Below, piece by piece: positions 43,601-57,555 of a DNA stretch of 64,000 nucleotides. The translations under genes and the position numbers were made by a program. The stretch comes from an archaeon HR01 (GTDB lineage: Archaea > Thermoproteota > Nitrososphaeria_A > Caldarchaeales > Caldarchaeaceae): the NCBI GenBank assembly GCA_002898355.1, contig BEHD01000006.1:1-64000 (forward strand), read 5' to 3'. The notes under the pieces are model-generated. The model saw only the letters and a list, made by a program, of their open reading frames with translations, searched no databases and was not told where the DNA came from. Each line of letters starts with the position of its first letter. The stretch's first letter is position 1.

Positions 43601-45061
43601 TCAGTCTACGGACGGGGATGAGAGAAGCCAGAGTCCAAACATCGTGTACCCAACCATCAAAAACATCATAGGAATTTGACTCAGCATCGCCGCCCTTACG
43701 GTCTTCACTTCCCTCAGAGCGATGACATGGGCTATGTACACCGCCAAAACATGCACCAATACTATCAAACCCACCTGAGCATAGTATACATAGTATACCT
43801 GATAAGGGTCCTTCAAGAAAGATGGAATCGCAGGCACGCCTGAGACTCCCAATAGGTTCCAGCCCAACTCAAAGGGGTCTGAAAAAGAAGCATAGACCGT
43901 CTGGAAATTGGCTACCACATACGGAAAATAGTGGGCTATATGATACCCCAAGGCTATGGGGACTATCGAGGGGACGAACAAACCCATAGTCTCGGAAAGC
44001 CTCCAACCGTGAAAAACCAGTAGCTTGGCCAGCCAGCAGGCCAGAATATAGACGGCCGCTATGGCTGAGAAAGTGGCCAGCATACCCACACTGTTAGCAC
44101 CCATGAGGAGTGTTCTCCCCGGGTAGTCAAGAGGATTGACCCCTATGATAGATAGCCATGTGAAGGTCCTTGAGAAGCCATCGAATGAGACCGTTGAGAG
44201 AGCGAGTATGATGAATATTGTATGGCTCAGCCTTAACCTCCGTTCTCTAGCTAGGTTGGCCGTGGGTAGCGTGACCAGTATTTGGCTTACCCGTCGGCCG
44301 TCTCCAACACCAGCATGAGAGAGAGCTGTTTCATTATCCGACCTGTCCCACTCTCGGACAGCTATAGGAGATATCCAAGACACCATTTCGAAGAATACAG
44401 AGAAAGCTTCACAATATTGTAGCCAGATGCGTTTACCGAATAGCAGGAGGCCTATGAAGTTGTAGAGTAGATAGCCTGCTATGAGGGTTGATAGGAACTC
44501 CGGGTCGGCTGGGTATGGGTGGACCAGCTCAACCCATGCGAATGCAAAAAAGACCGCTATAGATGGGATATATCCCAGCTTCTCCGGATACCTCAACGGC
44601 GGCCGATAATTTATCCTACGTAGAATCTTACTCCCCATCAGAAGCTCATACACACCTGTCCAAGGATTGAGAACGGCCCACACGTTACCGAGAAGGGCGG
44701 TAATAATTGTCATCCCGGGCCACCAGAGAAACCAGATGAAAAGCGGTGCAGGGTTTTCGAGAGGGTCTCTAGACCCATACCGGCCAGCGAAGACCAGAAA
44801 CGACGCAAACGCGAGAGAAGCAACACTAATCCAGACGCCTACCCGGGCTGAGCGGACGACCAAGACCTTTCCTCTATATTCTGTAGCAGAGACAACACGC
44901 CTAACCGGGATTAACGCCAGCAATGCGAAGGAGGCTGCCACCACCAATGCGCCACCCGCTATGAAGAGGTTTGTGGGGAGAAGGAGGATAAATCCCCGCC
45001 CGGATACATGAGCGGCCACAGCTGGAAAGAGGAAGGCTAAAAGAGGCAGTAGTAAAAGCAT
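43601..45061 (-). CDS. large polytopic membrane protein (about 12 TM)
   Basis: A 486-residue membrane protein starting at ATG 45061 (MLLLLPLLAFLFPAVAAHVS), which looks like a signal peptide or first helix. The frame is open to 45130, but that stretch contains the TATA box and so is upstream of transcription. About 12 helices, with polar markers HVSGRGFILLLPTNLFIAGG, FIWFLWWPGMTIITALLGN with NPW after it, and AHYFPYVVANFQ. The pattern resembles the bacterial membrane family often annotated as fenitrothion hydrolase, whose real role is uncertain. His and Trp residues within helices suggest a redox or transport role. Composition is more AT-rich than neighbouring genes. Confidence 0.7.
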   Translation of the reverse strand: MLLLLPLLAFLFPAVAAHVSGRGFILLLPTNLFIAGGALVVAASFALLALIPVRRVVSATEYRGKVLVVRSARVGVWISVASLAFASFLVFAGRYGSRDPLENPAPLFIWFLWWPGMTIITALLGNVWAVLNPWTGVYELLMGSKILRRINYRPPLRYPEKLGYIPSIAVFFAFAWVELVHPYPADPEFLSTLIAGYLLYNFIGLLLFGKRIWLQYCEAFSVFFEMVSWISPIAVREWDRSDNETALSHAGVGDGRRVSQILVTLPTANLARERRLRLSHTIFIILALSTVSFDGFSRTFTWLSIIGVNPLDYPGRTLLMGANSVGMLATFSAIAAVYILACWLAKLLVFHGWRLSETMGLFVPSIVPIALGYHIAHYFPYVVANFQTVYASFSDPFELGWNLLGVSGVPAIPSFLKDPYQVYYVYYAQVGLIVLVHVLAVYIAHVIALREVKTVRAAMLSQIPMMFLMVGYTMFGLWLLSSPSVD

Positions 45062-45108
45062 TTGACGGATAAAAGCACCCTTCAACCCTTCAGCAGAGTC
45101 GATGGGAG

Positions 45109-45120
45109 ATATATATATTA
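45109..45120 (-). promoter_or_regulatory. TATA box of polytopic membrane protein gene
   Basis: TAATATATATAT on the minus strand, 48-59 bases before ATG 45061. It lies inside the longest open frame, which shows that the frame's first codons are not translated. Confidence 0.5.
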
Positions 45121-45491
45121 ATCGGATCAAAGTTGGGGCTGCTAAGTTGTTTTTATGGCTTGGTTTTCCTGTCTTCTGCTATGGGTTTGCGGGTGGTCTT
45201 AAGGACTTCCCATTTTTATCGTTCCTCCAAGCCCTATAACTCAGACTCTTGGGTAGTAGCCTGAGGAGGGTATCTAGTGCTATAGGACTTTTCATCGGGA
45301 GGAGTCATGTTGGTGTTTAGCTTTGGGAGAAGAGGCTTCTGATGGGTGCAGTCACTAAGTAGCATGCAGGAGCCTAGGGATTGAACATGGATTCGAAAGC
45401 TGGATATACTTTACGAGGAAGAATGAGTGAAGGAAATACGCTGATCAAGATTGAGCAATACCGAGTTAACAGACCTTCAACGGTTAAAAAA
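45121..45491. other. intergenic region before the ABC importer operon
   Basis: Separates two divergent genes. Short frames (for example ATG 45387 in frame with the binding protein) exist but lie upstream of the importer's TATA box. I see no RNA helix or repeat that stands out. Confidence 0.4.
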
Positions 45492-45518: not shown

Positions 45519-46976
45519 ATGATGTCTATAGGAAAGATTTCAAGGAGAGATGCTATCAAAGCTATCACAAGATCTGCCGCAGCGGGTGTGGCTGTGGGTG
45601 TCGGGGTCGTAGGTGGTGTGGGAGGCTATCTCGTGGGTTCGTCTAGTGCAAGACCAGGCCAAACTGTGACCGTCACGCAGACAGCGGCCGGGGCCACAGT
45701 CACCCAGACCATCCCAGGCGCCACAGTGACTCAAACCGTCACGGCGGCCCCGTCGACTGTGACTGTCACGCGGACTGAGACTGTGGGCGGCCCTGCAAAG
45801 GAGCCGATTAAGATAGGGTTTGAAGTCCACAGAACCGGCATAGGTGCCGTGTATGGTGCTTGGTATGAGCGGACCACTAGGGCTGCTGTTGCATTGATAA
45901 ATGAGATGGGTGGGATAGACGGCCGGCCGATCGAGCTCATAGCAGAGGATGACGGCACAGACCCCCAGAGAGGTGTTCAGGCGGTGGAGAAGCTGGTGCT
46001 GGAGCATAAAGTCGACTTTATTCTGGGAGCCCTTTTCTCTAATGTGGTGCTTGCTGCAGCGCCTCGTGCCGGCGAGCTGAAGAAGCCTTACTTTGCAGTC
46101 AGCGAGGGCTATCATGTCCCGTCGGGACAGCTTAACAGATACAGCTTCCAGCCCGGCATTACGGATGTCAGATCACAGCTAACCGCAATAGCTGGATGGG
46201 TGGTCAATAATCTGGGTAAGAAGATTACGATGATCTACCCCGACTACGCCTTCGGATACGACCATAGGGATTGGTTTGGCAAGGCCGCAACAGAACTTGG
46301 CGCTACAATCATAGAGAGGATACCTATACCGCCCACCGAGACTTCCTTCACTAAATACTTCCCCAGAGTGCCCGCAGATACGGAGGTCCTCTACCATGTC
46401 ATGGTGGGCCCAGCCGTCTTAACGTTCGTGAAGGAGATGGGCGAATATTTTGGGTCCAGAAGACCAGAGATCTTCGGCTTCGTTGACTCTCTTGAAGGCG
46501 TGCCTCTGAATAGCCCGGGTCTGGAGTTCCTTGAGGGGACATATTTCTGGGAGGCATTTCCACGGTACCTTGACGGATACGACACCCCCTACCATCGATA
46601 CTATAGAAACAAGGTGGGAGTTGATGAAAACGGGGCTGACGTCAATGATCCAAAGAATGTTTCGACGTATTCACACATGTTCAGCTGTTGGGAGACGCTC
46701 TTCATACTCAAAGAAGCTGTTGAGCAGAGTGGATATAGACGACAGACCCCCGATGACTATAGAGCATTTATAACTACTTTAGAGAACTTCGAATGGTTTA
46801 ATGAGGGCAATCAGCATCCCCAGGGTGCGAAGAAGTTTGACGGAAGGCTACACCAATGCTTCGGGCAGCAGTTCATCTCAAAAGTTGAGAATTCCAAATT
46901 CAGGGTGGTGCATAGGACGAGGATTGAAGACTCGGTATACGAGTCAGATGTTGACTACACGAAGCAGCCCCTCTAA
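45519..46976 (+). CDS. ABC transporter substrate-binding protein, Tat-exported
   Basis: A 485-residue solute-binding protein of the branched-chain amino acid/amide (Peripla_BP_6) type. A twin-arginine signal (ISRRDAIKAITRSAAAGVAV) suggests folding before export, often linked to a cofactor or a quickly folding fold. A Thr/Val-rich spacer with VTQT repeats (TVTVTQTAAGATVTQTIPGA) tethers it to the membrane. The core begins IKIGFEVHRTGIGAVYGAWY and has EMGGIDGRPIELIAEDDGTD and VQAVEKLVLEHKVDFILGAL. Such proteins bind amino acids, amides, urea or aromatic acids. The following livHMGF-like genes complete the importer, and catabolic genes follow, so I infer an N-heteroaromatic or amide ligand. Confidence 0.9.
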   Translation: MMSIGKISRRDAIKAITRSAAAGVAVGVGVVGGVGGYLVGSSSARPGQTVTVTQTAAGATVTQTIPGATVTQTVTAAPSTVTVTRTETVGGPAKEPIKIGFEVHRTGIGAVYGAWYERTTRAAVALINEMGGIDGRPIELIAEDDGTDPQRGVQAVEKLVLEHKVDFILGALFSNVVLAAAPRAGELKKPYFAVSEGYHVPSGQLNRYSFQPGITDVRSQLTAIAGWVVNNLGKKITMIYPDYAFGYDHRDWFGKAATELGATIIERIPIPPTETSFTKYFPRVPADTEVLYHVMVGPAVLTFVKEMGEYFGSRRPEIFGFVDSLEGVPLNSPGLEFLEGTYFWEAFPRYLDGYDTPYHRYYRNKVGVDENGADVNDPKNVSTYSHMFSCWETLFILKEAVEQSGYRRQTPDDYRAFITTLENFEWFNEGNQHPQGAKKFDGRLHQCFGQQFISKVENSKFRVVHRTRIEDSVYESDVDYTKQPL

Positions 46977-47017
46977 ATAGCTTTTAATATCCTTGGTGTG
47001 TGTAGGTGTTTACATCC

Positions 47018-47887
47018 ATGGGGATAGAGGTCCCTATAACATTGGGAATCCTTGACGGGGTGGTTGTTGCTATGGTTGCGGCTCTAACAGCTCTGGGTCT
47101 TTCGCTGGTTTTTGGAATAATGAGGATAGTGAACGTATCCCATGGGGAGTTTTACATGCTAGGCGCTATCATAGCATGGTTTGTGGTGACATATCTAGGC
47201 AGTTTCCTCCTAGCACTTGTTCTGGCACCCCTAGCTGTTGGGGGGTTGGCCACAGCTGTAGAGCGTACCATACTCAAAAAGATAAGATATGACCCCGAAT
47301 CCACCATAGTGGCTACCATCGGGTTATTATACGCTATTCAGCAGGTGGTTCTCGCCACTTTCGGCCCCTACGCCAGAGAGGTATCCCCACCCTTCTATTT
47401 CCGTGTCGACCTTGGTTTCTTCGGCTACTCAGGGTATAAGGTGGGAGTCGCCGTGATATCAGCTATATTGATAGCGGCCGTGTATCTGCTGATATATAAG
47501 ACGCGGCTTGGGCTTTTCATGAGGGCGACCCAGCAGGACACCGAGATAGCCCAGGCATTCGGTGTCCCAGTCAGAAAAGTATACACAGTATCATTCGCGT
47601 TAGGTGCAGCGTTGGCTGCGGCTGCAGGGGTACTAATAGTTCCTATCCAGCAGGCTTACTACCTTATGGGGCTTGACGCTCTACTCCTATCATTTATAAT
47701 TGTGATAGTTGGAGGGCTTGGAAGCATTAAGGGTACTCTCGTGGCGGCGTTGATAGTGGGGTTGCTGGACGGTGTTGTATCGGTTTTCTTCTCACCTACC
47801 CTATCGCGCATACTGTCATCACTGCTGGTGGCCGGAGTCATATTGGTGAGGCCGAGGGGCCTGTTTGGGTCGGGGAAGACCATGTGA
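47018..47887 (+). CDS. livH: branched-chain-type ABC permease LivH
   Basis: A permease of 289 residues from ATG 47018 (GTG 47006 possible), with about eight helices. The LivH signature is LGLSLVFGIMRIVNVSHGEF followed by YMLGAIIAW. The cytoplasmic coupling loop has MRATQQDTEIAQAFGVPVRK. The C-terminal GGLGSIKGTLVAALIVGLLD is also typical. Second gene of the importer operon; its stop overlaps the livM start. Confidence 0.92.
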   Translation: MGIEVPITLGILDGVVVAMVAALTALGLSLVFGIMRIVNVSHGEFYMLGAIIAWFVVTYLGSFLLALVLAPLAVGGLATAVERTILKKIRYDPESTIVATIGLLYAIQQVVLATFGPYAREVSPPFYFRVDLGFFGYSGYKVGVAVISAILIAAVYLLIYKTRLGLFMRATQQDTEIAQAFGVPVRKVYTVSFALGAALAAAAGVLIVPIQQAYYLMGLDALLLSFIIVIVGGLGSIKGTLVAALIVGLLDGVVSVFFSPTLSRILSSLLVAGVILVRPRGLFGSGKTM

Positions 47888-48846
47888 TGAGGGAGATAGG
47901 CTCGCTTCCCGCTATATTCCATCTCTCCATCATTGCAGCCCTATTCGTAGCCCAGTTTATCCTTCCACCCTTCCACCACTCCATGCTGACAAGGATAATG
48001 GTTCTAGCTGCATATGCTTCGGGATACAACATACTGCTGGGATATACTGGTTTAATGAGTTTGGGGCACGCCATGCTCTTTTCCACGGGGCTGTACTCGG
48101 TAGGCCTGACTATTCTATATCTGGGATTTGAACCTCTAGCCGCATTCACAGTGGCACTGATATCCAGCTTAGTAATCTCCCTTCTCCTCGGGGCTATAAC
48201 ATTACGGACATCCGGGGTTTTCTTCCTCATAGTAACCATGATCTTCTCCCAAGTCTTCTATCTCACAACCCTTTACTTTAACAACATAACCTATGGAGAC
48301 CAAGGCTTCGTCATAAGCCAATACCTGCACCCCATCAACATGGGATTTTTCCAGATAGATTTTGCTGATAGGACGGTGAAGTATAACTTGTCACTCCTGG
48401 TGTTTAGCGTGGCCTTTCTGCTTAGCCTCTATGTAAGCAGGTCCCCCCTGGGACTTGTGCTTGCGGCTATCAAGGAAAATCCAGACCGGGCTGAAATGCT
48501 GGGATATAACACCTACAGGTATAAGCTAATAGCATTCGCCCTATCTGGCACGATAGCCGGTATGTCGGGAGCAGTATATGCTCTGGTATTCTCCTACATC
48601 GGCTCCTCTCTGGCCTTCATCCACAACTCCATAAATCCGCTGCTCTGGACGCTGCTCGGAGGCGCGGGTACAACAACCGGCCCCCTGGTGGGCACCATGC
48701 TCATGGTGTATGTCATAGATGTCACCAGCTCCTTCACGGAGAGCTACCTTGTTGTAGTTGGTATAGCACTCATTCTGATAATTCTCGGATTTCCGAAGGG
48801 GATAGTGGGAAGCATCAGGAAGAGGTGGCTCACATGGCTTCCGTAG
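47884..48846 (+). CDS. livM: branched-chain-type ABC permease LivM
   Basis: A 320-residue permease (start GTG 47884 or ATG 47887). LivM blocks: ASGYNILLGYTGLMSLGHAM near residue 45, TLRTSGVFFLIVTMIFSQV, the coupling helix LAAIKENPDRAEMLGYNTYR and ALLGGAGTTTGPLVGTM-like GGAGTTTGPLVGTMLMVYV. Overlaps livH by 4 bp and livG by 22 bp. Confidence 0.92.
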   Translation: MMREIGSLPAIFHLSIIAALFVAQFILPPFHHSMLTRIMVLAAYASGYNILLGYTGLMSLGHAMLFSTGLYSVGLTILYLGFEPLAAFTVALISSLVISLLLGAITLRTSGVFFLIVTMIFSQVFYLTTLYFNNITYGDQGFVISQYLHPINMGFFQIDFADRTVKYNLSLLVFSVAFLLSLYVSRSPLGLVLAAIKENPDRAEMLGYNTYRYKLIAFALSGTIAGMSGAVYALVFSYIGSSLAFIHNSINPLLWTLLGGAGTTTGPLVGTMLMVYVIDVTSSFTESYLVVVGIALILIILGFPKGIVGSIRKRWLTWLP

Positions 48847-49580
48847 AGGACGTACCCTTATTGGAGACCCAGGGCCTCTCGAAGAGGTTTGCCGGGTTGG
48901 AGGCGGTTAAATCCGTGGACCTACGTCTGGAGAAAGAGACGGTGAGGGCTATTATAGGACCCAACGGTGCAGGTAAGACTACCCTTGTCAACCTAATCAG
49001 CGGACGTTTAAAACCTACCTCCGGAAAAATCTACTACCGTGGGGTGGACATAACCAACCTACCGGCCCATAAAAGGGCGTCTATGGGCATAGTCTACACA
49101 TTTCAGATTGTCAGCCTCTTCCCATCCCTCACCGTATTTGAGAACGTCGTCCTAGCTGTCCAGAGAAGACTGGGCCGCGGTATACTGCTGAGGCTTGACA
49201 GGGACTCGGTGTACCGGCAGTCTGAGAAGGCTCTTGAACTGGTGGGTCTTGAAGATGAGGCGGAGCTGGAGGCCGGCGCCCTCCCATACGGGCATCAGCG
49301 GCTGCTGGATATAGCGATGGCCCTGGCCCTGCAACCAGTTTTACTTATTCTTGATGAGCCGACGCAGGGGCTGTCGGCGGGGGAGATAGAGAAGATAACC
49401 GATCTGGTGAAAAAACTCTCAAAAAACACTACAATCCTATTGATAGAACATAATATTAGTGTGGTTATGGAGTTGGCGCATAAGATCACGGTGATGGCTG
49501 ATGGGTCTATTCTAGCTGAGGGCCCCCCCTCAGAGGTTGAGAAAGATGTCAGGGTGCAGAGCATATACCTCGGAGTTTGA
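48825..49580 (+). CDS. livG: ABC transporter ATP-binding protein LivG
   Basis: A 251-residue ATPase. Walker A is GPNGAGKTTL (about residue 45), the LivG-specific region THTFQIV-like VYTFQIVSLFPSLTVFENVV follows, signature-like LPYGHQRLLDIAMALALQPV, Walker B LLILDEPTQGLS and the H-loop LLIEHNISVVMEL. The signature loop YGHQR departs from LSGGQ, as is usual for LivG. ATG 48825 lies within the end of livM. Confidence 0.93.
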   Translation: MAHMASVEDVPLLETQGLSKRFAGLEAVKSVDLRLEKETVRAIIGPNGAGKTTLVNLISGRLKPTSGKIYYRGVDITNLPAHKRASMGIVYTFQIVSLFPSLTVFENVVLAVQRRLGRGILLRLDRDSVYRQSEKALELVGLEDEAELEAGALPYGHQRLLDIAMALALQPVLLILDEPTQGLSAGEIEKITDLVKKLSKNTTILLIEHNISVVMELAHKITVMADGSILAEGPPSEVEKDVRVQSIYLGV

Positions 49581-49600
49581 TTTGAGTGGTTGGGCAGAAA

Positions 49601-50317
49601 ATGTCTGAATTTAGCTCACTAACCGTGAGTGGACTTAACTGTTATTACGGAAAGGCTCACATATTAAAAGACATATCTCTAACAGTCTCCAGGTCGGAGG
49701 TTCTCTGCATATTGGGACGTAACGGTGCAGGTAAGACAACAACCCTAAAGGCGATAATGGGCTTAGTGAGGCCAAGGTCTGGAGTGATATCACTCGACGG
49801 CGTGGACCTGACACGTGTACCTGCGCACAAGCTATTCTCATATGGTTTATCGTATGTGCCGCAGGGTAGACGCCTCTTTCCCGACCTAACCGTGGAAGAG
49901 AATCTCAGGATCAGTCCCTTGGTGAGGCGGGGTAACCAGGAGGTCATTCGGGAGGTTTGGGAGATCTTCCCCGTCCTTAAGGAGAGGATGCGTCAGAAGG
50001 CTGGCACACTGAGCGGTGGGGAGCAGCAGATGCTTGCAATAGCTCGGGCTCTATGCATGAAGCCCAAGTTCCTGCTGATGGATGAGCCTACGGAGGGTTT
50101 GATGCCGCTTCTAGTATCTAGAGTGTTGGAGAGTATAGGGTCCCTGAAAGCTAGGGGGTTGGGGATATTGCTTGTGGAGCAGAGGATTGATGCGGCCTTT
50201 AAGGTTGCTGACAGGGTATTGATAATGGAGAACGGCCGAATAGCACATGAAACAACTCCCCAGCAGCTGTATGCCAACGCTGAGGTTCTTCTAAAATATC
50301 TGGGGATAAAGCGCTGA
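49601..50317 (+). CDS. livF: ABC transporter ATP-binding protein LivF
   Basis: A 238-residue ATPase from ATG 49601 (GTG 49586 possible). Walker A GRNGAGKTTTLKAIMGL, Q-loop region GLSYVPQGRRLFPDLTVEEN, signature LSGGEQQMLAIARALCMKPK, Walker B LLMDEPTEGLMP and H-loop LLVEQRIDAAFKV (Gln-Arg replaces the usual His pair). Last gene of the importer; 329 bases follow before the molybdenum hydroxylase gene. Confidence 0.93.
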   Translation: MSEFSSLTVSGLNCYYGKAHILKDISLTVSRSEVLCILGRNGAGKTTTLKAIMGLVRPRSGVISLDGVDLTRVPAHKLFSYGLSYVPQGRRLFPDLTVEENLRISPLVRRGNQEVIREVWEIFPVLKERMRQKAGTLSGGEQQMLAIARALCMKPKFLLMDEPTEGLMPLLVSRVLESIGSLKARGLGILLVEQRIDAAFKVADRVLIMENGRIAHETTPQQLYANAEVLLKYLGIKR

Positions 50318-50646
50318 AGGGATTTAGTCCTCCGAAGGTGACGGGGGTTAGCGCCGGCCAGTTAACACCATAGTCGGAGACGGCCCTGTTTATGTCGCCC
50401 GAGACTATCTTACCGGCATTCTTGAGGTGTCACGGATACCGCTTTCAAAAGGCTTATTTATACCAGTTTTCGCCCACCAGAACAGGTCTGTAAAGTTTTT
50501 CCTGTCATCCGCTGGTGGTGACCGGATAACGCCTTAGGCATCATAGCGAAGGAAAAGCCGTCAAGCCTTTAAATACCATCCTCATCCGGACACTACCAAA
50601 ATTCTTTGGAACAGTTTAAAACTGAGCCTGAAAAAGCCAATCAACG
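50318..50646. other. intergenic region before the catabolic genes, with promoter
   Basis: No gene. TATA-like CCTTTAAATA at 50566-50575 lies 72-81 bases before TTG 50647 and implies a leader of about 45 nt. A second TATA-like GCTTATTTATACC (about 50453-50465) could start another transcript across ATCCG/CGGAT and ACAGG/CCTGT hairpins (50480-50525). These could be part of a leader, but nothing is certain. Confidence 0.45.
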
Positions 50647-52950
50647 TTGAAGCTGTCGAAAAGGTTGGAGGACCAGCGTCTTCTGCGGGGAGAGGGGATA
50701 TTCATAGACGACCTTGCTTTTCCGCAGATGCTTCATCTAGTCTTTGTCCGCAGCCCATACGGCCACGCTAGAATAAAATCGATAAACCTCCAGGAAGCTC
50801 TTAGGAAGGCTGCGGCGGTTATCGACGGCAAAACCGTGGCCTCGGGGGCTAAACCGCTCTACACATTGATAAGAGATGTGCCTTATTACGGTATCGCCGT
50901 GGGGAAGGCTAGGTTTTACGGTGAGCCCGTGGCGATGGTTGCTGCTGAATCACTGGGCGATGCTTTGGATGCTGCTGAAGAGGTGATGGTTGACTACGAG
51001 CCCCTGCCCGCCGTGGTTGACCCAGAGGCCGTCGAGTCATCTGTCCATGTGCATGAGAGCCTAGGCTCCAACGTGGCTTTGAGCCGTCATCTCGTCTTTG
51101 GAGATGTTGAGAAAGCATTTGCTGAAGCCGACACGGTTGTAAGGGAGAAGTTCTTCTTCGACAGATATGCGGCCGCCCCCATCGAGGCCTGTGGGGTGGT
51201 TACGGTCCCCGGAAAAGACGGCTCCCTAACAGTTTATGATAACCAGCAGACCCCTCAGCTTTTTAAAAAATTCATAGCCCAATCACTTGGACTTAAGCCG
51301 GAGAAGATACGGTTCATTGAATACGATATAGGTGGAGGATTCGGTGTAAAGATTATGCTTTACCCCTATGTTTTTCTACTCTGCTTCGCCGCACTCAGGC
51401 TCAGAAGACCAGTTAAATGGATAGAGACGCGTCGGGAACATCTGGCCGCCATGGCCCACAACTCCAACAGAGTAACTGTTGCAGAAATGGCTTTGAAACA
51501 AGACGGCAGGGTAACTGGCTACCGAACAAGCTTCATTGAAGACGTCGGTGCATACGCTAGGCTTCCAGACCCCGGGGGAACAGTGCGCTCCCTGATGACC
51601 TACCTCGGATGCTACGACATCCGCAATGTCGAAGTCGACTTCAAAGTTGTTCTGACAAACAAGTGTCCAACAGGGCCGGTGCGAGGTTATGGATGCCAGC
51701 AAGCCTACTTCGTCCTCGAACGCATGATGGACATAGCGGCTCGTCAGCTCGGGCTATCACCAACCGAGATACGCCTCAAAAACATGATAGAAAAGTGGCA
51801 GCAGCCCTACCGCACCGTCTTAGGAAGTCTTTACGACGGCGGCGACTATAAATCCACTCTCCTTAGGGCTTGGAGTCTTTCACAGGCGGAGAAATACCTC
51901 GGCTTACAGGACGTGGGCGTTGGAGTAGCATGTGTAGTAGAGCCAGCTGTGACAAACCTCGCCCGCAACAAGCTTCTCTTCCCAGAGCTCGAGACATCTG
52001 GGTCGGGAGAAGGCGCGATAGTGAGGCTGGAGGAGTCGGGAACCATAACGGTTTACGCTGCGTCTATTCCACAGGGGCAGGGACACGCAACAGTTCTTAC
52101 GGAGATTGTCTCCGAAGTCTTAGGTGTAAGGCCGGAGCAGGTACGGATACTTTTCGGCGCCACAGACCTCGTTTACCCGAGTCCCTACGGTGGCACATGG
52201 GGGAGCAGGTTCAGCGTCATGACCACAGCCGCAGTCAAAAAATCCTGCGAAATACTCAAGGATAGGATTCTGGAGATAGCTACCGAGATTCTCGAGGCCT
52301 CGCCGAAGGACCTCGAAATCCACGACGGCGAAATTTATGTAAAAGGGTCAGGCGTCTCCATATCGCTGGAGAAGCTGGCCGCAAAAGCTTACCGTGACAC
52401 CCTAGCCACCAAGGGAAAACACCAGAGCCTCCAAGCGGAATGTTTCTACGAATTTCCCACATTCAACACCGGTGAACCCGGTAAAATCAATATGTCAGCC
52501 ACCTACGGAAACTCAACCCACGTAGCCATAGTCAAGGTCGACAGAGAAAGTGGGGAGGTGAAGATTATACGATATGTCGCGGTCCATGACTGCGGAAAGA
52601 TACTCAACAAGGAGATCGTTGATGGTCAGATATTTGGTGGAGTTGTACAGGGAATTGGAGCAACGCTTTATGAAGAAATCGTGTATGATGAAAATGGGCA
52701 GCTGCTAACCAGCAACTTCAGTGATTATCTAATCCCGACGGCGGTGGAGACGCCGGAAATAATCATAGACCATTTAGAGACACCGTCTCTGTTTTCGGAG
52801 CTTGGGTCGAAAGGCATGGGGGAGGGCCCGTTGATACCGGTGGCAGCAGCCATAGTCAACGCAGTTGAAGACGCGGTCAAAACAAGGTTAACGCGGTCGC
52901 ATTTATCCCCCAGCCAGCTCTGGACAACCATTCACAGAAAAAGGCTTTAA
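50647..52950 (+). CDS. molybdenum hydroxylase large subunit (xanthine dehydrogenase/CoxL family)
   Basis: A 767-residue subunit from TTG 50647 that binds the molybdopterin cofactor. Blocks: GEGIFIDDLAFPQMLHLVFV at the start, IEYDIGGGFGVKIMLYPYVF, TGPVRGYGCQQAYFVLERM (about residue 346), IPQGQGHATVLTEIVSEVLG and the catalytic Glu726 in GSKGMGEGPLIPVAAAIVNA. The loop where true aerobic CO dehydrogenase has AYXCSFR reads PVRGYGC, so it is not a CO dehydrogenase; nicotinate, isoquinoline or xanthine hydroxylases fit better. The iron-sulfur and FAD subunits needed for such enzymes are not adjacent. The next gene is an enamidase homologue. Confidence 0.9.
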   Translation: MKLSKRLEDQRLLRGEGIFIDDLAFPQMLHLVFVRSPYGHARIKSINLQEALRKAAAVIDGKTVASGAKPLYTLIRDVPYYGIAVGKARFYGEPVAMVAAESLGDALDAAEEVMVDYEPLPAVVDPEAVESSVHVHESLGSNVALSRHLVFGDVEKAFAEADTVVREKFFFDRYAAAPIEACGVVTVPGKDGSLTVYDNQQTPQLFKKFIAQSLGLKPEKIRFIEYDIGGGFGVKIMLYPYVFLLCFAALRLRRPVKWIETRREHLAAMAHNSNRVTVAEMALKQDGRVTGYRTSFIEDVGAYARLPDPGGTVRSLMTYLGCYDIRNVEVDFKVVLTNKCPTGPVRGYGCQQAYFVLERMMDIAARQLGLSPTEIRLKNMIEKWQQPYRTVLGSLYDGGDYKSTLLRAWSLSQAEKYLGLQDVGVGVACVVEPAVTNLARNKLLFPELETSGSGEGAIVRLEESGTITVYAASIPQGQGHATVLTEIVSEVLGVRPEQVRILFGATDLVYPSPYGGTWGSRFSVMTTAAVKKSCEILKDRILEIATEILEASPKDLEIHDGEIYVKGSGVSISLEKLAAKAYRDTLATKGKHQSLQAECFYEFPTFNTGEPGKINMSATYGNSTHVAIVKVDRESGEVKIIRYVAVHDCGKILNKEIVDGQIFGGVVQGIGATLYEEIVYDENGQLLTSNFSDYLIPTAVETPEIIIDHLETPSLFSELGSKGMGEGPLIPVAAAIVNAVEDAVKTRLTRSHLSPSQLWTTIHRKRL

Positions 52951-52974
52951 AAAACCTCTTAATCAGAAGAAGAC

Positions 52975-54159
52975 ATGCCATCATACATTATTAAAAACGC
53001 TGGAAAAATCATAACCGGGGACATCAATAAACCGGTAGCAGACGGTGACAGCATATACGTAAGGGACGGTGTGATTGAAGAGGTTGGATGGAATATTTCT
53101 CGTCCAGCCGACGGAGTCTTCGACGTCAATAACATGACAGTTATACCGGGTCTTTTTGATTCTCACGTCCACCCAGTATTCGGCGACTTTACACCACGGC
53201 AAAACACGCTCGGCTTTATCGAGTCCTCCGTCCACGGTGGAGTAACAACATTCATCTCCGCAGGCGAGGTGCATCTGCCGGGGAGGCCACGGGGTGACAA
53301 AGAGGCATCGAAGGCCCTCGCCATCATCGCTCACAAGTCATTCAAAAACATTCGCCCGCTTGGCGCGAAAATACATGCTGGGGCCCTGCTCCTTGAGAAG
53401 GGGATGACGGAAGCTGACTTTGAAGAGGTTGTAGGAGCCGGGGTATGGCTTGTCGGTGAAGTGGGTCTCGGAAGTGTGCAGGACCCCGATGAAGCAGCAA
53501 CCATGGTTAGAATAGCGCAGAAACTAGGTATGAAGGTTGTTATACACACCGGCGGCGCCTCTATACCGGGCAGCACAATAAACAACGCCGACGTAGTCCT
53601 CAAAGTCAAGCCCGACGTCGTATCACACATCAATGGCGGCCCAACCTCACCATCCATACAAGACATAAGAAAAATAATTGAGAACCTCAACTCAGCCATT
53701 GAGGTTGTCCAGTGTGGAAACTTCCGCTCGATGATAGAGACGGTGAGGATTCTGCGTCAGAGAAACGAGCTTCACAGACTTATAGTAGGAAATGACGCGC
53801 CATCGGGAACAGGGGTCATCCCACTCGGCATAATCAGAACAATATCATTCATAGCTTCTAACACGGAAGTCGAGGCCGAGAAAGCTGTCTGCGCCTCTAC
53901 AGGCAACACGGGAAGGGTGTTCGGGCTCAGAGAAGGTGTCATTGAGCGGGGGAGGCCGGCCGACCTCGTAGTCATCGACGCCCCATATGGCTCGACTGCG
54001 AAGAATGCGTTGGAAGCTTTTTCAATAGGTGACATTCCGGGCATAGCCATGGTAATGGTTGACGGTCTTGCACGTGTTGGCCGAAGCAGGATGACGCCCC
54101 CGCCCACCCGCCAAATCAAGGTAGAAGGCTCAGCGAGGCTGCCGGAGGCTGTTCACTGA
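52975..54159 (+). CDS. enamidase-like amidohydrolase
   Basis: A 394-residue binuclear-metal amidohydrolase. As I recall the enamidase of Eubacterium barkeri, agreement extends over the whole length, with blocks IIKNAGKIITGDINKPV, the metal HVH at His64/His66 in FDSHVHPVFGDFTPRQNT, HGGVTTFISAGEVHLPGRPR, GVWLVGEVGLGSV with Glu162, HTGGASIPGS with His191, SHINGGPTSPS with His218 and the catalytic Asp274 in GNDAPSGTGVIPLGIIR. Enamidase hydrolyses 6-oxo-1,4,5,6-tetrahydronicotinate to 2-formylglutarate and ammonia in anaerobic nicotinate degradation. A relative acting on another cyclic enamide is possible. It lies 24 bases after the hydroxylase gene, and its stop overlaps the next start. Confidence 0.82.
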   Translation: MPSYIIKNAGKIITGDINKPVADGDSIYVRDGVIEEVGWNISRPADGVFDVNNMTVIPGLFDSHVHPVFGDFTPRQNTLGFIESSVHGGVTTFISAGEVHLPGRPRGDKEASKALAIIAHKSFKNIRPLGAKIHAGALLLEKGMTEADFEEVVGAGVWLVGEVGLGSVQDPDEAATMVRIAQKLGMKVVIHTGGASIPGSTINNADVVLKVKPDVVSHINGGPTSPSIQDIRKIIENLNSAIEVVQCGNFRSMIETVRILRQRNELHRLIVGNDAPSGTGVIPLGIIRTISFIASNTEVEAEKAVCASTGNTGRVFGLREGVIERGRPADLVVIDAPYGSTAKNALEAFSIGDIPGIAMVMVDGLARVGRSRMTPPPTRQIKVEGSARLPEAVH

Positions 54160-55163
54160 TGAAACTCGGCCTGCGTCTCCCAACCTACGCAATGCCTGGA
54201 GAATTCTCCTCATACGAGACGCTGAGAAACTATGTCGCTGAAGCGGAAGATTTAGGCGTTGAAGGCTTCTTCGTCATCGACCATCTGCTAACCTCGAAAC
54301 CTGCCTACTCAACCAGTTGGCACGACCCCTTGATCGCCCTCTCCTTCATAGCTGCCGCAACAAAGAAAGCAGTCATCGGGCCGATGATACTTGTGCTGCC
54401 CTTCAGAAACCCATACCTTCTCGCAAAACAGACAGCATCACTGGACGTCTACTCTGGGGGACGGCTCATTCTCGGCGCAGGTGTTGGATGGAACCCTGAC
54501 GAGTTCAGACTCCTGAACACTCCGCTGGAGAAACGGGGAGTAATCATGGACGAATATCTTATTCTCCTCAAGAAGCTGTGGACAGAGGATAAAATCAGTT
54601 TCGAGGGCAGGTTTTTCAACGTGAAGGATTTGGTTCTGGAGCCTAAACCCAGCCAGAAGCCTCATCCCCCGATCTGGATAGGGGGCGGTAGCCAGCCGCA
54701 TGAAATACTGTACGGCGCCGCCGCCAAGGGCATAGACAGAGTGCTTCACCGTGTCGCAAAGTTTGCTGACGGCTGGATACCGCATTCAAGCTCAACACCG
54801 GAGATGGCGAGACAGGACTGGGAGAAGGTCAAGAAATATGCCGGGGAGCTGGGACGCGACCCATACAAAATCCAAAAAGTATACTCGAACTTCATCTACA
54901 TCAAAAGCCCCGGCGACAACGACGCCGAAGCCGTCAAACGTTTTTCACTCTATTCAGGCATGAACCTTGATTACTGGAAAAACTTCTACCTATACGGAAC
55001 CCTTGATGAATTGACGGAAAAAATCAGGAAACGCATACAAGCCCTCGAGGGCGTCGACTGGATTGTTCTAAACCCCGTTACTTATGAGAAGGAGCAGTTG
55101 CAAAAAATTGCGGACGAGCTTTTCCCGCGCGTCGAGAACGTGAGCTGGCCCAAGGGTGGTTGA
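54159..55163 (+). CDS. LLM-class flavin/F420-dependent oxidoreductase
   Basis: A 334-residue TIM-barrel oxidoreductase of the luciferase-like family. Visible: LGLRLPTYAMPGEFSSYETL, the strand VEGFFVIDHLL, VIGPMILVLPFRNPYLLAKQ, LDVYSGGRLILGAGVGWNPD, then PKPSQKPHPPIWIGGGSQPH and FADGWIPHSS. Such enzymes use F420 or FMN for hydride transfer or oxygenation. Archaeal members usually use F420. In this operon it could reduce the ring before hydrolysis, or oxidise a product. It overlaps the enamidase stop by one base. Confidence 0.88.
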   Translation: MKLGLRLPTYAMPGEFSSYETLRNYVAEAEDLGVEGFFVIDHLLTSKPAYSTSWHDPLIALSFIAAATKKAVIGPMILVLPFRNPYLLAKQTASLDVYSGGRLILGAGVGWNPDEFRLLNTPLEKRGVIMDEYLILLKKLWTEDKISFEGRFFNVKDLVLEPKPSQKPHPPIWIGGGSQPHEILYGAAAKGIDRVLHRVAKFADGWIPHSSSTPEMARQDWEKVKKYAGELGRDPYKIQKVYSNFIYIKSPGDNDAEAVKRFSLYSGMNLDYWKNFYLYGTLDELTEKIRKRIQALEGVDWIVLNPVTYEKEQLQKIADELFPRVENVSWPKGG

Positions 55164-55504
55164 GCCATGATAAGACCCGTTACTATAGCCATTAAGGCCG
55201 TAGTGGTCGTCGCCTAGACATCATCTGGCTGAGACAGGCGATTTGGCTCCTTTGACGGGGGCTTCACTGGGTGGGATATGGTTTATACGAGATAGAGGCT
55301 AGAGGTTTTTTCTCAGCGCCTTCGTTGTCCTCTGAGAAAAACGACTCAATTATCGATATGATAATGGTTGATGCTATCAAGAAAACATGGTCATCCGACC
55401 CTACCGCTGCAGCAAACCAAACACTGACAGGAGAATACACTCCAGAGATGCCCGCACGACTTCCTACCCTCCCCGGGTGTAGAGTAAAATAACTCGACTG
55501 TTCT
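55164..55504. other. intergenic region between convergent catabolic genes
   Basis: Directly after the oxidoreductase stop, ATG 55167 opens a 16-codon frame ending at TAG 55217 (MIRPVTIAIKAVVVVA), which may be the start of a truncated gene. A 73-codon frame at 55271-55492 lacks protein-like features. No strong hairpin noted. Confidence 0.45.
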
Positions 55505-56122
55505 TTAGCGGAGGCCGTCCTCCCCCCTAACCTCTTCCTTACGCAGCCCCCCTATCCGTGGCAGAGGCCTCCCCGAGTTTGTGACAGCCGCTATCACTAC
55601 TATCTCGTCTGGCAGCGGAGCATCACCTATCCTGACCTCAACGGCGTCGTAGTGACTTCTCACAAACGCCGCCCGCTTATAATGAAGTGGAACGTCTATC
55701 GCGGTCCCGGGGCCGCCAAGCTTGGCCGCCGAGGGAATTATCGCCTTGCACACATCTTGTCCCCCGCATTCTTCTCGCAGTCCACGTCCAAACTTCGGAT
55801 GTAGAATAGCGTGTCCATGCTCCAGTTCACCCTCCAAACCGATTATCGCGGCCTTACCATAGCTCTCTACATCAGCGGGTGAAATCCCAAGAGCTTCTCT
55901 TGCTTTTTTACCTAGAAAGCCTCCCAAGAAATCGCCCGCGTCAATGAGCAGCTGCAAGTCGTCGACATATCTTCCGACGTATGGGTTCTTTATCACGGCG
56001 GCTGCAGCACTCTTTCTGACAGGCTGTTGCAGATCTTTACCCATCTCCATGAATGTTTCATCAACATAGACAGCGACCTTACGGATAACCACGCCGGAGG
56101 CAGCTTCCAGCATCACCACCAC
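55505..56122 (-). CDS. DUF1185 (AA_synth) family protein
   Basis: A 205-residue protein resembling the PF06684 'amino acid synthesis' family: VIRKVAVYVDETFMEMGKDL, then KNPYVGRYVDDLQLLIDAGD, ESYGKAAIIGLEGELEHGHA, GGPGTAIDVPLHYKRAAFVR and IVVIAAVTNSGRPLPRIGGL. In bacteria this family appears next to LLM oxidoreductases, amidohydrolases and aldehyde dehydrogenases in catabolic clusters; the biochemical role is unknown to me. It overlaps the aldehyde dehydrogenase gene by 10 bp and is probably co-transcribed. Confidence 0.75.
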   Translation of the reverse strand: MVVMLEAASGVVIRKVAVYVDETFMEMGKDLQQPVRKSAAAAVIKNPYVGRYVDDLQLLIDAGDFLGGFLGKKAREALGISPADVESYGKAAIIGLEGELEHGHAILHPKFGRGLREECGGQDVCKAIIPSAAKLGGPGTAIDVPLHYKRAAFVRSHYDAVEVRIGDAPLPDEIVVIAAVTNSGRPLPRIGGLRKEEVRGEDGLR

Positions 56123-57555
56123 CTCGTTGTCACAATCTTATGGTCTGTAAAGAATCTTATTGTGTCGACGCGGCTATGTGCTGTGCCGAAAAATGAATGC
56201 TTCCGGCCTCCCAGCGGAAAGTATGCCATGGGCTGTGGAACACCTACGTTTACTCCAACGTTTCCGACATTGACGTCGAGAGTGAAGCGGCGTGCCAAGT
56301 TAGGGTTTGATGTGAAGATTGAGGCGGCGTTACCGTAGGGAGTATTCTTGTTTATAAGCTCAACCGTCTCTTCCAAGCTTTCAGTGTAGATTATAGATGC
56401 GACTGGACCGAATATCTCCTCCTTCGCGAGCGGAGAATTGGGTGGTACATCAAGGAAAACCGTTGGCCCGATAAAGTAGCCGCCAAGAGGTTTAGCGGGT
56501 TTGTTCTTACGCCCGTCGACGATAAGTTTGCCAACCTGCTCGCCGATTTCGATAAACTTTAGAACCCTGTCTAGCAGGGTCTTGGCGGCCATCGGCCCCA
56601 TCTCGGTCTCCTTATCCATACCATATCCCAGCCTAAGCCAAGACTTCTCCCGCACCATGTCAACAACCTTCTCAGCCCCCTTAACCACAACGAGGTTAGA
56701 GCCAGCAAGACAACGCTGACCCGACATCCCAAAGAAGGATGATACAACAGCGTCAGCCGTCTTCGCAAAATTGGCGTCAGGCATCACAACAAGATGGTTT
56801 TTGGCCCCGGCGTTGATGGAGGCGCGTTTCCCCTCCTTTGCAGCCAGCTCATAGAGAAATTTACCCGTCTTCGTCGAGCCGATGAACCCTATCCCCTGAA
56901 TATCGGGATGCCGCGCCAAAGTCTCAGCAACCCTGCCATCGCCATGAACAACCGACATCACACCCGTGGGAACCCCCGCCCCCTTAACTATCCGAGCGAC
57001 TTCGTTCGCGATAATGGGTGTTACTTCGCTGGGTTTGAGCACAACAGTCGCACCGAGGGCTATGGCGTAGGGGACGTATGAGGACCATGCGTGTAGAGGG
57101 ATGTTGAAAGGCGTTATCACGGCGAAACAGCCTAGAGGCTCCCGGATAAGCTCCTGATCTATGTCTGGAGAGACGTTAACCATCTTCTCCCCTTTGGCCA
57201 AAGTGTACGCCAGTGCGGCCGCCGCCTCGACGTTTTCTATACTGCGTTTAACCTCCGCCACGGCCTCTGCGTAGGTTCTGCCGTGGTTTTCGACGAGTAT
57301 TCTAGCGAGCAGGTCGGTATCCCTTATCACCGAATCACGAATCTTCAACAGGTACGACACCCTATCAGAGGGGGTTGTCTTCCGAAACTTTTCAAACGCT
57401 GATACACCTGCCTCAACAGCTTCTGCAACCTCCTCCTCGGTGCTTACTGGAGCGTATGAGATGACGGTGTCGAAGGCAGGGTTTCTGACCGGAATCTTTT
57501 CCGAAGACTTTGACTCAACAAACTGGTCAGCTATGAAGTTTGGCAACACATTCAT
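56113..57555 (-). CDS. methylmalonate-semialdehyde-dehydrogenase-like (CoA-acylating) aldehyde dehydrogenase
   Basis: A 480-residue ALDH. The catalytic Cys282 is in FFGMSGQRCLAGSNLVVV. At the position of the general-base Glu (ELGGK in ordinary ALDHs) the sequence is INAGAKNHLVVMPDAN with Asn248, which is the hallmark of MMSDH, a CoA-dependent enzyme that releases CO2 from malonate semialdehydes. Other features are ITPFNIPLHAWSSYVPYAIA, FIGSTKTGKFLY and GNVGVNVGVPQPMAYFPLGG. It may oxidise 2-formylglutarate to glutaryl-CoA, given the convergent enamidase. A minus-strand TATA-like TTTAAAAC lies 21-31 bases upstream. Overlaps the DUF1185 gene. Confidence 0.88.
   Translation of the reverse strand: MNVLPNFIADQFVESKSSEKIPVRNPAFDTVISYAPVSTEEEVAEAVEAGVSAFEKFRKTTPSDRVSYLLKIRDSVIRDTDLLARILVENHGRTYAEAVAEVKRSIENVEAAAALAYTLAKGEKMVNVSPDIDQELIREPLGCFAVITPFNIPLHAWSSYVPYAIALGATVVLKPSEVTPIIANEVARIVKGAGVPTGVMSVVHGDGRVAETLARHPDIQGIGFIGSTKTGKFLYELAAKEGKRASINAGAKNHLVVMPDANFAKTADAVVSSFFGMSGQRCLAGSNLVVVKGAEKVVDMVREKSWLRLGYGMDKETEMGPMAAKTLLDRVLKFIEIGEQVGKLIVDGRKNKPAKPLGGYFIGPTVFLDVPPNSPLAKEEIFGPVASIIYTESLEETVELINKNTPYGNAASIFTSNPNLARRFTLDVNVGNVGVNVGVPQPMAYFPLGGRKHSFFGTAHSRVDTIRFFTDHKIVTTRWW

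Follow-up and report, generated by a model that had tools for sequence, protein, structure and literature searches.

A locus in the genome of the archaeon HR01 probably encodes a catabolic module for nicotinate, or for a close 3-carboxypyridine relative, in the Caldarchaeales. It lies between positions 45,519 and 57,555 of the first 64,000 nucleotides of contig BEHD01000006.1 (assembly GCA_002898355.1); these 64,000 nucleotides are the whole stretch that was analysed and are called here the window. The host, a member of the Caldarchaeales (formerly Aigarchaeota), has an assembly of 1.76 Mb that is 93% complete. The locus consists of ten open reading frames (ORFs): eight on the plus strand, running from a Liv-type ATP-binding cassette (ABC) importer through a molybdenum (Mo) hydroxylase large subunit and an enamidase-class amidohydrolase to a luciferase-like (LLM) oxidoreductase, and two on the minus strand, for a DUF1185 protein and an aldehyde dehydrogenase (ALDH) resembling methylmalonate-semialdehyde dehydrogenase (MMSDH). 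A preliminary description of this DNA had placed ten genes at these positions and in these families, and this is what was found: the ORFs match, and the family matches are far above chance. Its broader proposal, an archaeal pathway comparable to that for nicotinate, finds support in the gene families, their linkage, and the logic of the pathway.

The amidohydrolase (52,975 to 54,159, plus strand) is, by its sequence, a true relative of the Eubacterium barkeri enamidase and a protein of the enamidase family. Among all solved structures, its best match is that enamidase (PDB 2vun; residues 3–383, 52% identity, E = 1e-123), and the next-best, a dihydroorotase, reaches only 4e-9; the agreement across the whole length that had been claimed therefore holds. 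The alignments contain all the enamidase motifs (HVH, GEVGLG, HTGG, SHINGG, and GNDAPSG), of which the glutamate in GEVGLG is presumably a metal ligand, the roles of the other individual motif residues being assumed likewise. The closest named relatives come from Candidatus Caldarchaeum (80–90% identity), another archaeon (77%), and Pelearchaeum (73%). The homology and phylogeny check that had been called for places the protein in the enamidase family, away from isoaspartyl peptidases and prolidases. The eight archaeal enamidases form one well-supported group in a tree built from 27 homologues.

Since the deep order of this tree was not resolved, the comparison was extended to the alignment columns that separate seven HnR-linked enamidases, including that of E. 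barkeri, from six without such a link (HnR being 6-hydroxynicotinate reductase). At 16 of the 21 diagnostic columns the archaeal enamidases carry the residue of the HnR-linked class, and at three they share that of the other; in the reverse test, the corresponding figures are 20 and 6 of 33 columns. One of the columns lies at the metal site, where the archaeal and HnR-linked enzymes have Glu (GEVGLG) and the six others have Lys (AKFGFG or VKAGFG). Identity to the E. barkeri enzyme is 49–53% for the archaeal enamidases and 44–49% for the HnR-linked proteobacterial ones.

The tie between this class and nicotinate comes from its bacterial homologues, which stand beside HnR, Mo hydroxylase, and Liv-type importer genes. 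On plasmids of Comamonadaceae, Sulfitobacter, and Rhizobium (the Rhizobium locus lacked annotation and was annotated in this analysis), the enamidase gene is accompanied by HnR, by genes for Mo hydroxylase subunits, ferredoxin-NADP reductase, and Liv-type transport, by UPF0280, and by DUF1185 in one or two copies. A planctomycete locus (L019:2755-13359) encodes an enamidase at 54% and a DUF1185 protein at 59% identity. Its neighbours are aconitase-type dehydratase subunits, a B12-binding mutase-like protein, MutL, PrpF, and a phosphoenolpyruvate-mutase-like lyase, as would be anticipated for the part of the E. barkeri route that follows 2-formylglutarate, and its HnR is located elsewhere in the genome. 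The planctomycete appears to possess the greater part of the genes for nicotinate fermentation of the E. barkeri type.

The enamidase is present in 8 of the 151 genomes surveyed, and in these archaea its gene surroundings are conserved. The Mo large subunit, enamidase, and LLM genes are contiguous, with their order unchanged, in each of the eight, one of which belongs to another family (one of the eight Mo genes is cut by a contig end); the gene set is therefore kept together in relatives, not scattered. DUF1185 occurs in the same eight genomes and in only two others, an overlap with a naive hypergeometric probability of 8e-12, which ignores shared ancestry. The DUF1185 and ALDH genes are adjacent in seven of the genomes, including Pelearchaeum, where the pair lies elsewhere in the genome; in the eighth, a contig end intervenes. 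Three Caldarchaeum-type genomes (L043:2908-13431, L044, and L045) have a second locus, with an enamidase paralogue of 39–40% identity, a Mo large subunit, an LLM gene, another amidohydrolase, a UbiD decarboxylase, and genes for CbiQ-type and ABC ATPase proteins; this second locus probably serves the breakdown of a related ring.

The DUF1185 protein (55,505 to 56,122, minus strand) belongs to PF06684 (232.5 bits against a gathering score of 27; E = 3e-69) and matches the family's structures 2qtp and 3byq (SPO0826 and BB2672) over its full length, the former at 9e-64. The family, for all its solved structures, has no known function, whereas the protein of the window is placed here in a proposed ring-opening pathway. 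Among 26 HnR-bearing plasmid records, DUF1185 lies within about 3 kb of HnR in all 26, and enamidase is also present in 16; in the archaea, DUF1185 goes with enamidase where HnR is absent. Five of the ten plasmid loci that lack enamidase were examined, and all five have hydantoinase A/B-type (or acetophenone-carboxylase-annotated) genes, so DUF1185 accompanies either kind of ring opener. Such a pattern fits a possible role for DUF1185 at the ring-opening or formyl step; a cyclic-amidase or RidA-like function was entertained as one possibility. The idea that DUF1185 is itself the sole ring opener is weakened by the same five loci. In these clusters of HnR, UPF0280, and DUF1185 without enamidase (L101–L105), the hydantoinase A/B-type genes likely provide an alternative opener for tetrahydro-oxonicotinate. 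Structure prediction for the DUF1185 protein was of too low confidence to be used (predicted local distance difference test scores of 36 with one sequence and 56 with four).

In known chemistry, reduction of the ring must precede the action of enamidase. HnR was not detected in any of seven archaeal genomes (G000, G001, G002, G004, G005, G007, and G011) with a profile built from four HnR proteins, which did recover the planctomycete gene (6e-116) and two plasmid genes as positive controls; nor was it found by a single-sequence search of 28 genomes. With HnR absent and reduction needed before enamidase, the LLM oxidoreductase (54,159 to 55,163, plus strand; Bac_luciferase, 9e-47) is, by position and elimination, the best candidate for the ring reductase. 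The suggestion that an LLM enzyme stands where bacteria use an Fe-S reductase thus agrees with the archaea tested, from which HnR is missing as that idea requires. The protein scores 204.3 bits on TIGR03619, a model named for F420, above its curated cut-off of 166.9. Plasmids yielded only relatives of about 33% identity in Sinorhizobium, and weaker ones in haloarchaea; no linkage of these plasmid genes to enamidase was seen.

The ALDH (56,113 to 57,555, minus strand; Aldedh, 8e-122) overlaps the DUF1185 gene. Among solved structures its ten closest matches are without exception MMSDHs, headed by 1t90 (3e-98). Like the CoA-acylating MMSDH (IolA, TIGR01722, PDB 1t90), it has GAKNH (at 250) replacing the usual catalytic-Glu loop, together with RSIENVE (at 104), GQRC (at 279), and two arginines aligned with those of MMSDH, which we take to be the arginines that hold the substrate carboxylate. 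From a 2-substituted malonate semialdehyde, with CoA and NAD, MMSDH forms acyl-CoA, CO2, and NADH. Since 2-formylglutarate is such a semialdehyde, with a carboxyethyl side chain, the product of an MMSDH-type reaction would be glutaryl-CoA, and we infer that the ALDH may make it in one step. The proposed substrate differs from that of MMSDH in its larger side chain.

Taken in order, the predicted pathway would begin with import of the substrate by the Liv-type transporter. The Mo large subunit would borrow its FAD and Fe-S partners and carry out the first ring hydroxylation to 6-hydroxynicotinate, and the LLM enzyme, replacing the bacterial HnR, would reduce the ring to 6-oxo-1,4,5,6-tetrahydronicotinate. 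Enamidase would then open the lactam by hydrolysis, with release of ammonia, to give 2-formylglutarate, and DUF1185 might assist around this step by handling the enamine or imine or the formyl product. Finally, the ALDH would convert 2-formylglutarate, CoA, and NAD to glutaryl-CoA and CO2 by oxidative decarboxylation. The substrate, each reaction, the order of the steps, and the cofactor of the LLM enzyme are all predictions from gene families and their arrangement. A more specific version, in which an LLM enzyme, possibly F420H2-dependent, dearomatises 6-hydroxynicotinate and an MMSDH-like enzyme makes glutaryl-CoA directly from 2-formylglutarate, is a tentative proposal with less probability for it than against it. 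A search of the open-access literature, which is not proof of novelty, gave no archaeal nicotinate breakdown, no ring reduction by an LLM enzyme, and no step from 2-formylglutarate to glutaryl-CoA.

The nicotinate fermentation of E. barkeri uses Ndh, Hnr, and Ena, followed by Hgd, Mgm, Mii, and Dmd, and its Mo subunits are split. The archaeal locus likewise combines a Mo hydroxylase with an enamidase whose metal motifs are conserved, but it has an LLM gene in place of HnR, its neighbouring aldehyde enzyme is the MMSDH-like ALDH, and its Mo large subunit is encoded by one undivided ORF and comes closest to CoxL and quinoline oxidoreductase. Hgd, Mgm, Mii, and Dmd are not in the archaeal locus, the rest of the genome not having been searched for Mgm, Mii, or Dmd. 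An aerobic pathway through tetrahydro-oxonicotinate, of the Azorhizobium type, was reportedly described by Kitts in 1992, as cited in PMC9304392. With clusters of this type and the HnR plasmid clusters, the archaeal locus shares the Liv-type importer, Mo hydroxylase, DUF1185, and enamidase; it differs in having neither UPF0280 nor ferredoxin-NADP reductase genes and one DUF1185 copy, not two, in genomes without HnR. The ring-reduction and enamidase steps of the nicotinate pathway have been summarised (PMC9304392).

Several observations weigh against a nicotinate pathway at this locus. The Mo hydroxylase large subunit (50,647 to 52,950, plus strand; MoCoBD_1/2, with MoCoBD_2 at 2e-82; GMGE motif) is present as had been noted, but it is an orphan, no medium (FAD) or small (Fe-S) subunit being found in the locus. 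The host genome has about 18 large-subunit genes and only five FAD and five Fe-S (2Fe-2S) partner genes; partner sharing is therefore likely, and the enzyme likely uses electron-transfer partners encoded elsewhere in the genome. The label MMSDH-like, too, stands for the ALDH on its solved relatives and motifs, but the score on TIGR01722 (416.4 bits) falls just below the curated cut-off of 448.5; moreover, none of the six host acyl-CoA dehydrogenases reaches the cut-off for glutaryl-CoA dehydrogenase. As for F420, the host has CofD and CofE, but CofH (Fo synthase) is absent, with a background-level match only in the closed relative G002; across the Caldarchaeales genomes examined, CofH was present solely in G003, a genome of the same family. 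F420 would consequently have to be made from salvaged Fo or in some unknown way, or else the LLM enzyme uses another flavin; salvage of Fo is possible in Caldarchaeales with CofD and CofE but no CofH. To these points are added the lack of resolution in the deep branching of the enamidase tree and the existence of enamidase-family genes in clusters without HnR (Thermomicrobium, Mesorhizobium, and Rhodococcus), from which it follows that the family is broader than nicotinate.

One alternative, less probable than nicotinate breakdown but deserving serious consideration, is an enamidase-class pathway for another N-heterocycle (a substituted pyridine, a pyrrole-type lactam, or a cofactor breakdown product), in which the LLM protein would be an FMN/O2 monooxygenase and not a reductase. 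Enamidase homologues do occur beside Rieske dioxygenases or FAD monooxygenases without HnR; the best PDB match of the LLM protein bears the name alkanal monooxygenase (6e-18) and outscores the F420 enzyme methylenetetrahydromethanopterin reductase (3e-13), and the absence of CofH would suit an enzyme independent of F420. However, the metal-site lysine of the six non-HnR enamidases is not that of the archaeal protein, which at the 21 columns mostly goes with the HnR-linked class, and the LLM protein passes the cut-off of the F420-named model. A nicotinate-type pathway in which an unlinked, unrecognised reductase reduces the ring and the LLM enzyme is accessory appears improbable. It draws on the fact that the LLM function is assigned by position and elimination, the genome having been searched for HnR only; against it, the LLM gene lies directly 3′ of enamidase in all eight genomes, with a 1-nt overlap in the window, and the second enamidase locus also has an LLM gene and a Mo large subunit.

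Least probable is a role in amino-acid or peptide metabolism, with the enamidase as a generic lactamase or dihydroorotase-like enzyme. The importer has Liv-type names, PF06684 is itself named "amino acid synthesis", and a structure paper of 2010 put the family in amino-acid metabolism on the basis of its Liv gene neighbours (PMC2954203). Yet the enamidase match is far above that to dihydroorotases, and the same neighbourhood of Liv genes and DUF1185 surrounds the bacterial HnR in the plasmid records; the Liv neighbours of DUF1185 may instead be nicotinate importers. A different identity considered for the Mo enzyme, CO dehydrogenase, was rejected because the AYxCSFR loop of CoxL is absent; the nearest solved structures of the enzyme are CoxL, a putative oxidoreductase Mo subunit (4zoh), and quinoline 2-oxidoreductase. 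Another Mo large subunit, 41% identical and adjoining an acyl-CoA dehydrogenase gene, is found on the same contig at 102,870 to 106,078.

The importer of the window comprises five plus-strand genes: a substrate-binding protein (45,519 to 46,976, with a possible start at 45,381; Peripla_BP_6, 3e-52), LivH-like (47,006 to 47,887; BPD_transp_2, 2e-39) and LivM-like (47,884 to 48,846; UrtC/LivM models) permeases, and LivG-like (48,825 to 49,580; LivG 4e-64, UrtD 7e-67) and LivF-like (49,586 to 50,317; LivF 3e-60, UrtE 3e-75) ATPases. They are spaced by at most 29 nt or overlap, as do the LivH- and LivM-like genes, by 4 nt. A gap of 329 nt separates the LivF-like gene from that for the Mo large subunit, which ends 24 nt 5′ of the enamidase gene; upstream of the Mo large subunit, enamidase, and LLM genes is a possible archaeal TATA element, TTTAAATA (50,568 to 50,575, plus strand), a weak motif match in the sequence only. 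Pelearchaeum has an importer orthologous to that of the window (59–78% identity, the substrate-binding protein being the 78% orthologue), whereas Caldarchaeum and the genome of another family have a different, non-orthologous Liv set at the locus (23–43%). That the importer has been replaced and its place retained argues for a functional link. A membrane protein encoded nearby (43,601 to 45,130, minus strand, divergent from the importer) has no Pfam match; its 49% homologue adjoins the ALDH-DUF1185 pair in Pelearchaeum (L072:4074-5579), and it may therefore belong to the pathway as well.

Nicotinate goes unmentioned in the genome paper on Caldarchaeales (PMC10547907). If the proposed pathway exists, nicotinate breakdown through tetrahydro-oxonicotinate, to date a bacterial route, would extend to thermophilic archaea, and reduction of the pyridone ring would have a new enzyme family. 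DUF1185 would gain a concrete pathway context. We know of no cultivated member of these thermophilic archaea, and for them the locus would name a testable substrate.

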